Shown here piece by piece: positions 5,571 to 9,040 of a DNA stretch of 49,250 nucleotides. Each line of letters begins with the position of its first letter. Position 1 is the first letter of the stretch. Where the stretch lies: NCBI GenBank assembly GCA_947169975.1, contig CAMVRT010000016.1, forward strand, positions 1 to 49,250. Direction: 5' to 3'. This DNA comes from an uncultured Oscillospiraceae bacterium. GTDB lineage: Bacteria > Bacillota > Clostridia > Oscillospirales > Oscillospiraceae. A program made the position numbers and the translations under genes. The notes under the pieces were generated by a model that was not told the DNA's origin, ran no database searches, and worked only from the letters and a program-made list of their open reading frames with translations.

Positions 5571-5614
5571 AGGAGGGAAATATTATTTCAGACGTAATAT
5601 TTCGCAATACCATG
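5571..5614 (+). promoter_or_regulatory. Shine-Dalgarno separated from ATG by a perfect hairpin
   Basis: AGGAGG (5571-5576) lies 35 nt before the ATG at 5612, much too far for normal initiation. Between them is a perfect 9-bp inverted repeat: GAAATATTA at 5577-5585, TAATATTTC at 5595-5603, with a 9-nt loop. If the hairpin forms, the gap shrinks to GCAATACC, exactly 8 nt. The alternative is a rare ATT start at 5582 or 5585, which is in frame and 5-8 nt from the same site. Confidence 0.6.
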
Positions 5615-7021
5615 AAAAGACTGACCAAAAAGCAGATGATCATCTTCGCCATCGGCCAGCTGGGCTGGTCCACCCTCAGCGGCATCATCGGCGCCTGGTT
5701 CGTGACCTTCTATCTGCCCACCGAGGGCGATATCGCCGTCGGCGCCATCCAGTACATCCGGCCCGGTCTGGTGATTCTCGGCTTCCTGACGATCCTGGGT
5801 CTCATCACCGCCTGCAGCCGTCTGTTCGACGCCATCACCGACCCGCTGATCGCCAGCATGTCCGACCGCAGCAAGAACCCCAAGGGCAGACGCATTCCCT
5901 TCATGAGAGTGGCGGCGATCCCCCTGTCCATTGTCACCGTCCTTCTGTTCTGCGCTCCCGCCGGCAATTTTGCAACGGGCAACGCCAACGTGCTGAACAT
6001 CATCTGGATCTCCGTGTTCGTGGTCCTGTTCTACCTGTTCATGACCATGTACTGCACGCCCTACAACGCCCTGATCTCCGAGTTCGGCAAGACCCAGGAC
6101 GACAGAATGTTCATCTCCACCTCCATCTCCCTGACCTTCTTCGCCGGCACCATGCTGGCCTACACCCCCTTTGTGTTCGCCGGCATGCTCCGCGGCGCCG
6201 TGGGTTTTGCCTGGAGCTACCGCATCTGCTTCATCGTGCTGGCCGTCATCGCCTGCGTGTGCATGCTGCTGCCCACCTTCCTGCTCAATGAAAAGGAGTT
6301 CGTGGACACCGCTCCCTCCCAGACCGACATGATCAAGTCCCTGATCGCCACCTTCAAAAACCGGGAGTTCCGCGTGTTTGCCGGCTCCGACATCATGTAC
6401 TGGGTCGGCCTGACCCTGTTCCAGACCGGCCTGCCCTTCTTCGTCAAGGTCTCCATGGGCCTGGATGAGAGCTACACCATGATCTTCATGGGCGGCATGA
6501 CCGTGCTTTCCGCCTGCTTCTATCCCTTCGTCACCGGGTTTGTCAAGAAGTTCGGCAAGAAGAAGCTGGTGATCCTTGCCTTCCTGGGTCTGGCCGTTGA
6601 CTATCTGGTCACCGCGCTCATCGGCATCGGCTCCTTCAAGGGCATGATCCCCGGCGTGCTGATCTGCATCCTCGCCGCCATCCCCATGGCCCTGCTGGGC
6701 ATCATCCCCCAGTCCATCGTGGCTGACGTGGCCGAGGCTGACGGCATCGTCACCGGCGAGAACCGGGAGGGCATGTTCTTTGCCGCCCGCACCTTCGCCA
6801 TGAAGTGGGGCCAGGCGCTGGCCATGCTGATCTTCACCTCTCTGGCCATTATCGGCACCACCCAGAACGCCAACTCCAACGACATCACCGCCTCCGCCCT
6901 GGGTCTGCGTGTGGTGGCCATTGTTGCCCTCTGCTTCTGCGTGCTGGGCGCCGTGATCCTGGCTCTCTACAACGAGAAGAAGATCATGAAGACCATCGAC
7001 GACAAGAAGCCCGTCAAGTAA
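5612..7021 (+). CDS. GPH-type (MelB-like) sugar:cation symporter, MFS
   Basis: 469 aa with about twelve hydrophobic segments. The glycoside-pentoside-hexuronide family signature is clear after the second helix: RLFDAITDPLIASMSDR, then GRRIPFMR. The acidic residues on helix II are those that bind the coupling cation and sugar in MelB. It probably imports a glycoside or its breakdown product for the GH2 enzyme upstream. The start is taken as ATG 5612 (MKRLTKKQ). The long gap to the Shine-Dalgarno is described separately, and initiation at an in-frame ATT 27-30 nt upstream would add nine or ten residues. The preceding 5360-5570 stretch is lower in GC, has no gene and no clear promoter. A structured repeat follows immediately in the 3' untranslated region. 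Confidence 0.9.
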   Translation: MKRLTKKQMIIFAIGQLGWSTLSGIIGAWFVTFYLPTEGDIAVGAIQYIRPGLVILGFLTILGLITACSRLFDAITDPLIASMSDRSKNPKGRRIPFMRVAAIPLSIVTVLLFCAPAGNFATGNANVLNIIWISVFVVLFYLFMTMYCTPYNALISEFGKTQDDRMFISTSISLTFFAGTMLAYTPFVFAGMLRGAVGFAWSYRICFIVLAVIACVCMLLPTFLLNEKEFVDTAPSQTDMIKSLIATFKNREFRVFAGSDIMYWVGLTLFQTGLPFFVKVSMGLDESYTMIFMGGMTVLSACFYPFVTGFVKKFGKKKLVILAFLGLAVDYLVTALIGIGSFKGMIPGVLICILAAIPMALLGIIPQSIVADVAEADGIVTGENREGMFFAARTFAMKWGQALAMLIFTSLAIIGTTQNANSNDITASALGLRVVAIVALCFCVLGAVILALYNEKKIMKTIDDKKPVK

Positions 7022-7038: not shown

Positions 7039-7267
7039 AAATGCCCGGGATTTGAGGATCCCGGGCATTTCAGACTATAGACAAAGGTAAATGGCCGAAA
7101 GGCTACGATACGCATGGGGGATTGTGAAGGGGGAGGGGACTCCCCCTTCACGTGAAATCCGTGCAAATTCAGGAACATTTTTCAATGTTTCTGAATTTGC
7201 ATTTCAAGCTGTCGACACTTTGTCGACAGCTTGAAATGCCCGGGATTTGAGGATCCCGGGCATTTTT
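7039..7267 (+). repeat. Structured element, copy 1: hairpin - core - same hairpin
   Basis: Two identical 32-bp palindromes (7039-7070 and 7234-7265; 13-bp stem AAATGCCCGGGAT, loop TTGAGG) frame a 163-nt core. Only the downstream palindrome has a T-run, so only it should terminate. Core stems: GTA/TAC (7087-7089 with 7104-7106); GCATGG/CCGTGC (7112-7117 with 7159-7164) enclosing an 11-bp hairpin (7124-7134 with 7141-7151); a 15-bp AT-rich hairpin (7165-7179 with 7184-7198); and an 18-bp hairpin (7199-7216 with 7222-7239) around the loop ACTTT. The last overlaps the 5' arm of the terminal palindrome. Copy 2 is at 8817-9040. No coding potential is seen. Confidence 0.85.
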
Positions 7268-7293
7268 GCGGACGGAGGGCGCAAAATAGCCCC

Positions 7294-7322
7294 TTGCGCC
7301 GTGTCCTGCTCTGGCATATAAT
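7294..7322 (+). promoter_or_regulatory. SigA-type promoter of second GPH transporter
   Basis: TTGCGC (7294-7299), 17-bp spacer, perfect TATAAT (7317-7322), 57 bp before the ATG at 7380. It lies just downstream of the terminator that closes repeat copy 1, so the second transporter has its own transcription unit. Confidence 0.75.
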
Positions 7323-7379
7323 GGAAAAAACCCGGCGGAATCGCGCCGGAGACCGAAAACAAATGAGGAGAGAGAAACC

Positions 7380-8798
7380 ATGAAACTATCCGGAAAGGCG
7401 AGGCTGTCCTACGCTCTTGGCGCTGTGGGCAAGGACATGGTCTACATGCTCTCGGCCAGCTACGTCCTGTACTATTTTCAGGATCTGCTGGGCGTCAGCG
7501 CCGGCGCCATGGGCGTTATCCTGATGGCCGCCCGCGTATTTGACGCCTTCAACGATCCCGTCATGGGCGCCATCGTGGCCAAGACCAAGACCCGCTGGGG
7601 CAAGTTCCGTCCCTGGCTGCTGATCGGCACGCTGACCAACGCCGCCGTGCTGTATCTCATGTTCGCTGCGCCTCCCGCGCTGGACGCCAGAGGCCTGGTT
7701 GCCTACGCCGCCGTGACCTATGTTCTCTGGGGCGTCACCTACACCATGATGGATATCCCCTACTGGTCCATGATCCCCGCCTTCACCGAGGGCGGCAAGG
7801 AGCGTGAAAACCTCACCACCCTGGCCCGCACCGCTGCCGGCGTGGGCAGCGCCATCATCTCCATCGCCACCATGAAGCTGGTCCCCCTGCTGGGCAAGCT
7901 GCTGGGCGGCATGGAGGGCAACGCCGGCGAGATCATCGGCTTCAAATATTTTGCCCTGATCGTTGCTGTTCTGTTCATCGTCTTCACCGTTCTCACCTGC
8001 GTCAACGTCAAGGAAAAGTCCACCGCCGAGATGGAGACCGTTTCCGTCAAGCAGATGTTCCGCGCTCTGGTGCAGAACGATCAGGCCATGACCGTTACCA
8101 TCGCCATCGTGCTCATCAACTGCGCCATCTACATCACCTCCAATCTGGTGATCTACTTCTTCAAGTATGACTTCGGCGGCACGGGTTGGTACGACGCCTA
8201 TTTCCTCTTCAACATGTTCGGCGGCGCCATTCAGGTGCTGAGCATGATGGTGTTCTACCCGGTGCTGCGCAGGAAGTTCACCAGCCTGCAGATCTTCTAC
8301 ATCTGCCTGGGCATGGCCGTGGCCGGCTACGCCATATTGCTGGGACTGGCCTTCACCAACATGTCCAGCGTGTTCCTGCTGTTCATCCCCGCCTTCTTTA
8401 TCTTTGCCGCCAACGGCATGCTGACCGTCATCACCACCGTGTTCCTGGCCAACTCCGTGGACTACGGCCATCTGAAGAACGGCCGCCGTGATGAGTCCGT
8501 CATCTTCTCCATGCAGACCTTTGTGGTGAAGCTGGCCTCCGGCGTGGCCATCCTGATCGCCTCCCTGTGCCTGCAGTTCAACAAGCTGAAGGAGGGCACC
8601 GAGGTCACCGATGCCGACAAGCTGGTAGACTGGTCCCTGGGCGTGTCCGCCGCCTCCAAGACCGGCCTGCGCATGACCATGACCATCATCCCCATCATCG
8701 GCCTGTTCGTGGCCCTGTTCTGGTTCAAAAAGCGCTTCATCCTCAACGATCAGAAGATGCGCGAGATCAACGCCCAGCTGGAGAGCAAGGCGAAGTGA
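7380..8798 (+). CDS. GPH-type sugar:cation symporter, MFS (second)
   Basis: 472 aa, about twelve membrane segments, ATG preceded by GAGGAGAGAG. Family signature: ARVFDAFNDPVMGAI then KTRWGKFRPWLL, the version typical of XynB/UidB/YicJ-like members. It differs strongly in sequence from the symporter at 5612, so the two are not a recent duplication and may carry different glycosides. It has its own promoter upstream and the second structured element downstream. Likely role: uptake of an oligosaccharide or glycoside for the GH2 and GH3 enzymes. The substrate is unknown. Confidence 0.9.
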   Translation: MKLSGKARLSYALGAVGKDMVYMLSASYVLYYFQDLLGVSAGAMGVILMAARVFDAFNDPVMGAIVAKTKTRWGKFRPWLLIGTLTNAAVLYLMFAAPPALDARGLVAYAAVTYVLWGVTYTMMDIPYWSMIPAFTEGGKERENLTTLARTAAGVGSAIISIATMKLVPLLGKLLGGMEGNAGEIIGFKYFALIVAVLFIVFTVLTCVNVKEKSTAEMETVSVKQMFRALVQNDQAMTVTIAIVLINCAIYITSNLVIYFFKYDFGGTGWYDAYFLFNMFGGAIQVLSMMVFYPVLRRKFTSLQIFYICLGMAVAGYAILLGLAFTNMSSVFLLFIPAFFIFAANGMLTVITTVFLANSVDYGHLKNGRRDESVIFSMQTFVVKLASGVAILIASLCLQFNKLKEGTEVTDADKLVDWSLGVSAASKTGLRMTMTIIPIIGLFVALFWFKKRFILNDQKMREINAQLESKAK

Positions 8799-8816
8799 TT
8801 TCCCTGTTTCAAAAAG

Positions 8817-9040
8817 GACTCCCGAGGTTAGTATAACCTCGGGAGTTCAAACTGCAGACAAAGGTTATATGACGAAAGGTAACGACACGCATGGGGGATT
8901 GTGAAGGGGGATGGGAGTCCCCCTTCACGTGAAATCCATGCAAATTCAGAAACATTTTTTAATGTTTCTGAATTTTCTGCAGTGTGTCGACACTTTGTCG
9001 ACACACTGACTCCCGAGGTTACTATAACCTCGGGAGTTTT
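8817..9040 (+). repeat. Structured element, copy 2: hairpin - core - same hairpin
   Basis: Palindromes at 8817-8847 and 9008-9038 (12-bp stem ACTCCCGAGGTT; the pair differs by one loop base) frame a core closely matching copy 1, but these palindromes are unrelated in sequence to those of copy 1. Differences between cores preserve pairing: GTA/TAC becomes GTT/AAC (8864-8866 with 8881-8883); a T.G pair becomes T-A (8889-8894 with 8936-8941); G.T becomes A-T in the AT-rich hairpin (8942-8956 with 8961-8975); and three consecutive base pairs change together in the last stem (8980-8991 with 8997-9008). Only the downstream palindrome carries a T-run. Confidence 0.85.

Follow-up and report, generated by a model that had tools for sequence, protein, structure and literature searches.

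A small element that duplicates whole target hairpins in Oscillospiraceae, most likely driven by an IS1182-family transposase

Introduction

The window analysed here is a 49,250-nt stretch of contig CAMVRT010000016.1 from an uncultured Oscillospiraceae bacterium (GCA_947169975.1), and it carries two similar structured units, each flanked by its own pair of 30-32-bp palindromes. The locus thus raises the question of what the two units are and how each came to stand between two look-alike hairpins. A sequence-only reading had offered as its simplest model a small mobile element that inserts at a terminator stem and duplicates that stem, and as the alternative a structured 3'UTR RNA; it knew no family with such behaviour. 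This last remark was too strong, since IS1182-family elements target hairpins, as the available text of two papers describes (PMC5678879, PMC4923244). IS1272, a member of this family, replaces stem-loops without duplicating them, and a second route (pathway b) that permits duplication of the whole stem-loop was put forward as a possible pathway (Wan et al. 2017, PMC5678879). IS1272/TnSha1 was found to target hairpins, several of them confirmed terminators, with deletion of the hairpin (Furi et al. 2016, PMC4923244), and a review cited in that paper states that some IS1182 members target palindromes. IS1182 is also one of ten families over-represented between convergent genes (PMC9208149).

Results

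The window contains a direct repeat of 155 nt, starting at 7044 and at 8821 with an identity of 83%, and the two structured units with matched palindromes around them proved to be real. Copy 1 of the element occupies 7071-7233 on the + strand, as do the features below unless stated otherwise. It opens with a left terminal repeat, CAGACTATAGACAAAG, at 7071-7086, followed by a strongly conserved centre (7106-7160) with the central hairpin (helix 2, 7124-7151) and by a third hairpin (helix 3, 7162-7201), the final 3 nt of which overlap a linker, X' (GCATTT, 7199-7204), the complement of AAATGC at the start of the downstream palindrome. The right end of the element consists of two terminal repeats placed head to head so that they form a hairpin (helix 4, 7205-7233 in copy 1, with the right terminal inverted repeat, TIR, at 7218-7233). 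The upstream copy of the target hairpin (7039-7070, 32 bp, without a T-run on the + strand) and the downstream copy (7234-7265, followed by a short T-run) are identical at 32 of 32 positions. Copy 2 occupies 8848-9008, its end having been corrected from 9007, with a left terminal repeat CAAACTGCAGACAAAG at 8848-8863, the conserved centre at 8883-8937 and the right-end hairpin (helix 4) at 8980-9008, which differs from that of copy 1 by three compensatory pairs. Its palindromes, compared over 8817-8847 and 9008-9038, are 97% identical; the downstream hairpin copy proper spans 9009-9038.

It had been claimed that only the downstream palindrome carries the T-run of a terminator. At copy 2 the terminator scan did find the downstream palindrome to be terminator-like on the + strand, but the upstream one (8817-8847) is terminator-like on the - strand, and neither palindrome of copy 1 was listed by the scan. 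With the T-runs of copy 2 on its outer sides, transcripts from each direction should terminate beyond the element. An MFS_2 transporter gene (5612-7021) lies upstream of copy 1 and a gene for a GPH-type sugar:cation symporter (7380-8798) between the two copies; as these flanking MFS transporters share only 23% identity, the repeat is not a gene duplication, in line with the earlier reading.

A search of the core against the genome and its relatives returned 13 copies in the own genome, two of them interrupted by an insert of ~110 nt at one spot, and matches at E 1e-8 in 9 of 32 genus genomes, the own one included. From the genus, 74 distinct copies or fragments were extracted, 67 of them with both flanks. 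A covariance model of the centre (74 positions) matched in 28 of 400 family genomes and 16 of 106 genera at E 1e-4, where the weakest matches (~31-36 bits) are less certain, and in 17 genomes of nine genera at E 1e-7. Several family genomes held bursts of near-identical copies. In a scan of named genomes an exact 25-nt piece of the core was found in 31 stretches, titled as Oscillospiraceae, Ruminococcaceae or Clostridia metagenome-assembled genomes, and an exact 23-nt piece had no match among viral contigs. The ~110-nt insert is GC-rich and structured. In four copies from two species (L011 1327-1598; L012 1329-1600, reverse strand; L079 711-981; L080 645-914) it interrupts the tip of the central hairpin at one and the same position and replaces part of that hairpin; it may represent a longer subfamily or a nested repeat.

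A locus-specific palindrome was present on both flanks of 11 of the 13 own-genome copies. Across the genus, the likeness of the two flanks, direct or inverted, exceeded the 99th percentile of mismatched direct flank pairs in 28 of the 67 distinct copies, and in 25 of these 28 no more than 3 nt separated the shared stretch from the element at either end. Pairing by hairpins gave 31 matched pairs from 112 candidates, many of which were truncated or imprecisely bounded; 27 pairs were direct, two loop-inverted and two tied, and the paired palindromes were ~19-41 bp long. Copies without matched palindromes had been named as evidence against insertion, and 39 of the 67 genus copies were indeed of this kind. 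Many of them are read as older insertions common to related species, or as copies with decayed ends, from which the upstream palindrome was lost: the insertions common to G012, G016, G023 and G029 retain only the downstream palindrome. Some unmatched copies may have inserted without duplication.

Differences between paired palindromes fell at 14 of 602 stem positions and 6 of 114 loop positions, which was not significant (p 0.11). The loop-inverted pairs (L002, L011, L009, L260) are not predicted by simple fill-in; at L260 (G042) the loop is inverted even in a recent-looking copy. In G218, the paired palindromes of L285 and of L286/L287 have identical stems and different loops beside near-identical copies of the element, and L286 and L287 may be separate insertions.

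Comparison of occupied and empty sites gave a direct view of the state without the element. In G030, G023, G016, G015, G010 and G022, the ~400 nt downstream of the relative of the 7380-8798 transporter gene contain one hairpin and no MITE, and G030 and G015 keep the downstream gene as well. In G018, the relative of the gene at 5612-7021 likewise stops at a single terminator hairpin with no element. None of these seven syntenic empty sites carries two palindromes, as the insertion model had predicted. Given the palindrome pairs of the own genome and these empty sites, the element is a non-autonomous insertion, a miniature inverted-repeat transposable element (MITE), whose target-site duplication is a whole hairpin. 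In G029 the same transporter terminator is immediately followed by CAGATTGTCAAAAAAGC, the end of another IS1182-like element; at this locus (L107 3200-3700, G029 C16) the terminator, which is empty in G016 and G023, is followed by CAGATTGTCAAAAAAGC and then by the right half of a MITE with a different palindrome, so that one site was targeted repeatedly.

The MITE terminal repeats are ~16 bp long and follow the pattern CARRCTGTMGACAAAG. With one mismatch allowed, this pattern matched 17 sites in the own genome, of which 14 belong to MITE copies, and the reversed pattern matched one; the sites outside MITE copies lie at C1:212879, inside an apparent coding sequence, and at C9:25001 and C18:21731. 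Among the nine MITE-bearing genus genomes, which like G019 are incomplete drafts, the DDE_Tnp_1 profile had a single match, in the own genome (L113). This transposase belongs to the IS1182 family (NF033551, 397 bits, cut-off 270) and, used as a query, had matches in 5 of 32 genus genomes, its own being the only MITE carrier. One end of the own-genome IS1182 element, CAGCTTGTCAAAG, lies one base from a terminator palindrome; no second palindrome accompanies it, and the other end looks truncated. Upstream of the transposase gene (L113 2909-3130) there are repeats containing TGTCATTCCGAGG, and the same locus holds a GC-rich stretch, CGCTTCGCTGATTT, the reverse complement of which also occurs in the ~110-nt MITE insert.

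Genome G019 of the same genus has no MITE and carries an IS1182 element that duplicates hairpins. Its ends, CAGATTGTCAAAGAACC and CAGTCTGTCAAAAAAC, are flanked by identical palindromes in direct orientation, the duplications being exact over 34 bp (L190/L184) and 33 bp (L182/L179), each insertion having been paired across contig ends. None of the contigs read contained an autonomous IS1182 element complete with its two ends and a palindrome at each. The MITE repeat CARRCTGTMGACAAAG and the IS1182 ends CAGCCTGTCGAAAAAG, CAGTCTGTCAAAAAAC and TGGGGCTGTTGACAAAG are alike, not identical; TIRs such as TGGGGCTGTTGACAAAG are those of full IS1182 elements elsewhere in the family. IS1182-type ends were also found with the MITE outside the genus. 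In G361 (genus g12), where the core match is strong, the left end is CAGACTGTCAAAAA in 3 of 10 copies read (L271, L274, L276); of two weak core matches, L247 (E 6.7e-5) has ends CAGCTTGTCGAAAAAC...CTTTTTCGACAGCCTG of IS1182 type and a duplicated palindrome, and L238 (E 3.2e-6) has the IS1182-type end CAGGCTGTCGAAAAACC. The likeness of the terminal repeats, the hairpin duplications of G019 and the IS1182-type left ends in another genus point to an IS1182-family transposase as the likely mover of the MITE, judged from sequence comparison.

Hairpin association was also seen in a wider scan, in which 14 IS1182-type ends abutted hairpins of 9-23 bp; the 53 loci scanned include four rve loci and some overlapping ones, and the count has no control. 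A palindrome listing of IS loci showed a single palindrome per locus, in most cases on both strands. Six family IS1182 loci, whose paired ends have TIRs of other types, showed no palindrome duplication, and this, together with the hairpin deletion by IS1272, shows that hairpin duplication is not general in the IS1182 family. When the MITE centre was searched for in 44 autonomous IS1182 loci, only one weak match (E 0.055) was obtained; the internal sequence of the MITE is thus not derived from the IS1182 loci searched, nor need a MITE be so derived. DDE_Tnp_1_6 was present in 38 of 150 family genomes, and IS1182 co-occurred weakly with the core (5 of 9 core-positive and 33 of 141 core-negative genomes, p 0.046), the sample of 150 being assumed to be G000, G001, G023 and G032-G178. 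Transposases of the rve type (PF00665), which matched in four of the nine MITE-bearing genomes, were rejected as movers: L109, L111 and L112 have no MITE-like TIR and L110 only loose, 3-substitution matches. Among other transposable elements, IS1202 makes duplications of 27 bp. A right-end-like hairpin without a core at G012 C22:12414 is accompanied by no recognisable transposase frame. In G090 (L136), a palindrome of ~35 nt occurs at 1907-1942 and again at 2873-2908, 966 nt apart, near and not around a decayed fragment of an IS1182-type transposase.

The cores of copies 1 and 2 fold far better than their shuffles (z -10.4 and -11.1). In a larger alignment of 35 copies, 97.9% of the pair cells held standard pairs, compared with 91.2% in shuffles and 37-48% with slid partners, and 16 of 44 pairs, in three stems, showed two-sided changes, so that the covariation expected of a structured element is present. 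The three adjacent compensatory pairs described for the last stem were confirmed, and other copies show them too (alignment A2, columns 142-144). The claim that at least four helices differ by compensatory changes counted too many: between the window copies such changes affect three pairs of the last stem and one pair at the tip of the second stem, while the third stem has a one-sided change and the 5' stem is absent from the consensus structure. On the + strand G-U pairs outnumbered A-C pairs by 114 to 12 overall, and by 18 to 7 after removal of helix 1 and of the G-U-rich columns 56, 68 and 107; this excess favours an RNA over a DNA hairpin, on a structure drawn by RNAalifold, which is biased towards structures with G-U. 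Long antisense open frames occurred at most loci in the gene-orientation comparison. At gathering score, Rfam matched three tRNAs and nothing else in the whole window, and had no match in L011, L079, L247 or L236; the best sub-threshold match was STnc70, on the opposite strand (31.4 bits against 40), and at gathering score no known Rfam RNA family fits the element.

The centre of the element is also its slowest part. For 12 pairs of insertions inherited in separate species, positions 36-90 differed at 9 of 659 sites, as against 79 of 1205 elsewhere (p 7e-8), the other three parts contributing 27 of 427, 32 of 500 and 20 of 278. These counts omit L060, which is split, and the right part of L086, which is rearranged; the right part is covered by 11 pairs. 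A reduced set of nine pairs, in which L054 is still used twice, gave 8 of 494 against 41 of 954 (p 0.008). The central ~55 nt thus change at a third to a fifth of the rate seen elsewhere in the element, among copies that were collected with the core as query and are biased towards those keeping it. The centre may be an RNA that the host retains, or it may be required for mobility, and gene conversion between copies may be a source of its likeness.

The linker X' comprises the 3-8 nt before the last hairpin and is complementary to the start of the downstream palindrome, with a mean run of 3.85 over 53 copies as against 1.28 in mismatched pairs, a value not reached in any of 2000 shuffles. Such a match would be expected if X' were a guide (splint) that chooses targets by pairing to the hairpin foot, as in IS200/IS605. 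In agreement with this, GCCTCT is common to six copies of G005, which sit at terminators that begin with A(A)GAG or AGGAG; the guide reading is favoured both in G005 and in the G012/16/23/29 clade against terminator backgrounds that are small (14 and 71, from a crude finder), and the match is good in some copies with identical palindrome feet on both sides (L001, L005, L050, L251, L265, L270). The bursts argue otherwise. In the recent burst of G218, six copies have GCTTTT in common, and a copy fits its own target no better than it fits those of the others (1.5 in both cases); in that of G207, five copies with TGCGCT gave runs of 1, 5, 2, 3 and 1. Over all 34 burst copies with a usable right end (of 60 burst loci, 26 lacked one, and none came from G265 or G327), X' did match its own target better than in within-genome shuffles (2.68 against 1.88, 0 of 5000). 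Copies whose X' is unlike the commonest one of their genome often match, as L251, L256 and L269 do, and L254, L260 and L261 are exceptions; in G361 two copies at different palindromes, L270 and L275, have one common X' that matches both.

The upstream palindrome, taken as a record of the original foot, allows the direction of change to be read. The two feet agreed over 8 nt in 34 of 43 copies; in the nine others the adjoining foot fitted X' better in seven, equally well in two and worse in none. Four of these seven differ in the first base only, and L010, L274 and L275 differ inside; in L274 and L275 it seems to be the foot of the palindrome that moved closer to X'. From the burst copies and the differing feet, X' appears to be inherited on insertion, with X' or the adjoining foot later changed to match by a local process, and a general guide function of X' is disfavoured and quite improbable, though X' may have guided single copies. 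Template switching within a quasi-palindrome is a known mechanism for such matching and is the likely cause; selection may also have acted.

Discussion

The reading that we consider very probable is that each unit is a ~160-bp non-autonomous MITE, moved in trans by an IS1182-family DDE transposase, with duplication of the target hairpin. The many independent insertions, their close abutment on the hairpins, the empty syntenic sites and a matching autonomous element uphold the simplest model offered earlier. In the proposed mechanism, the transposase would recognise the ~16-bp terminal repeats and take a DNA hairpin or cruciform as its target. On each strand a 3' end of the element would be attached to the hairpin at its 5' foot, and after gap repair a hairpin would stand on either side of the element where there had been only one. 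The T-runs would remain outside, so that transcripts from either side would still end, past the element, which would become a 3'UTR. The upstream hairpin copy would often be lost later, and X' and the adjoining palindrome foot would afterwards come to match, with template switching in the quasi-palindrome at the junction as the probable cause.

The main rival takes the structured 3'UTR RNA as the selected unit, the centre acting as RNA in the transcripts of many genes and the element being kept for it. The slow centre, the two-sided changes in three stems and the predominance of G-U over A-C on the + strand, as expected for RNA, lend this earlier alternative some support as far as a conserved centre goes. 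It leaves the duplicated palindromes, the TIRs and the multi-copy bursts unexplained, and the core-based collection of copies, gene conversion and the preference of RNAalifold for G-U structures each weaken the signal in its favour; we regard it as possible, yet doubtful. A related proposal, which combines both, has the centre as a functional structured RNA that rides hairpin-targeted transposition into 3'UTRs before terminators and is kept by selection while the transposon ends decay. This is somewhat less likely still and is offered tentatively; if true, it would be a regulatory RNA module that a transposase makes mobile, in at least nine genera of one family (16 at the looser cut-off).

Group IIC introns also insert beside terminator hairpins, and a retro-element or group IIC-like intron inserting downstream of such hairpins would have the same class of target. 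The MITE has TIRs and a long duplication, measures only ~160 nt and has no Rfam match to intron RNA domains, which speaks against a group IIC intron and makes this whole class of explanation very improbable. Twin terminators might instead have been made repeatedly and convergently by recombination or slippage, without transposition, since palindromes are unstable and some of the pairs are loop-inverted; that the same 160-bp sequence stands between palindromes at many unrelated loci in many species, and that syntenic sites are empty, leaves this scarcely credible.

The MITE, most likely IS1182-driven and duplicating whole hairpins, differs from known systems in several ways. It resembles IS1272/TnSha1 in the presence of an IS1182-family transposase, in the similar TIRs of related IS1182 elements and, going by the available text of the two papers, in a hairpin target that is often a terminator and has no fixed primary sequence (PMC5678879, PMC4923244). 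For IS1272 these texts describe the hairpin as deleted or replaced without duplication, whereas the MITE duplicates it whole, and IS1272-type stem-loop replacement does not fit the hairpin on both sides. A further difference from IS1272/TnSha1 is that the MITE is not autonomous and carries a structured, conserved centre that was not found in the IS loci. Like other bacterial MITEs it is short, multi-copy and non-coding, with TIRs, target duplication and bursts; unlike them, its duplication follows the length of the hairpin (~19-41 bp) and is not fixed, its right end is made of two head-to-head TIRs and its centre is more conserved than its ends. In IS200/IS605 and REP/BIME elements, hairpin ends are accompanied by a short complementary stretch at the hairpin foot, a feature that the MITE has as well; it differs from them in its TIRs, its long direct duplications and a complementarity that arose at least in part after insertion. 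A limited search of titles and abstract openings, with incomplete coverage, found no published description of a terminator-duplicating MITE or IS.

The MITE therefore appears to supply the missing case of a proposed pathway, namely structure-dependent transposition that duplicates the whole target hairpin, seen in many natural insertions and with an autonomous and a non-autonomous element in one genus. Its centre, RNA-like and slow to evolve, makes it possible to test whether hosts retain an RNA that a transposon carries. Because both outer sides keep a terminator, insertions of this kind may do almost no harm, and terminator hairpins may be a safe niche for mobile DNA.
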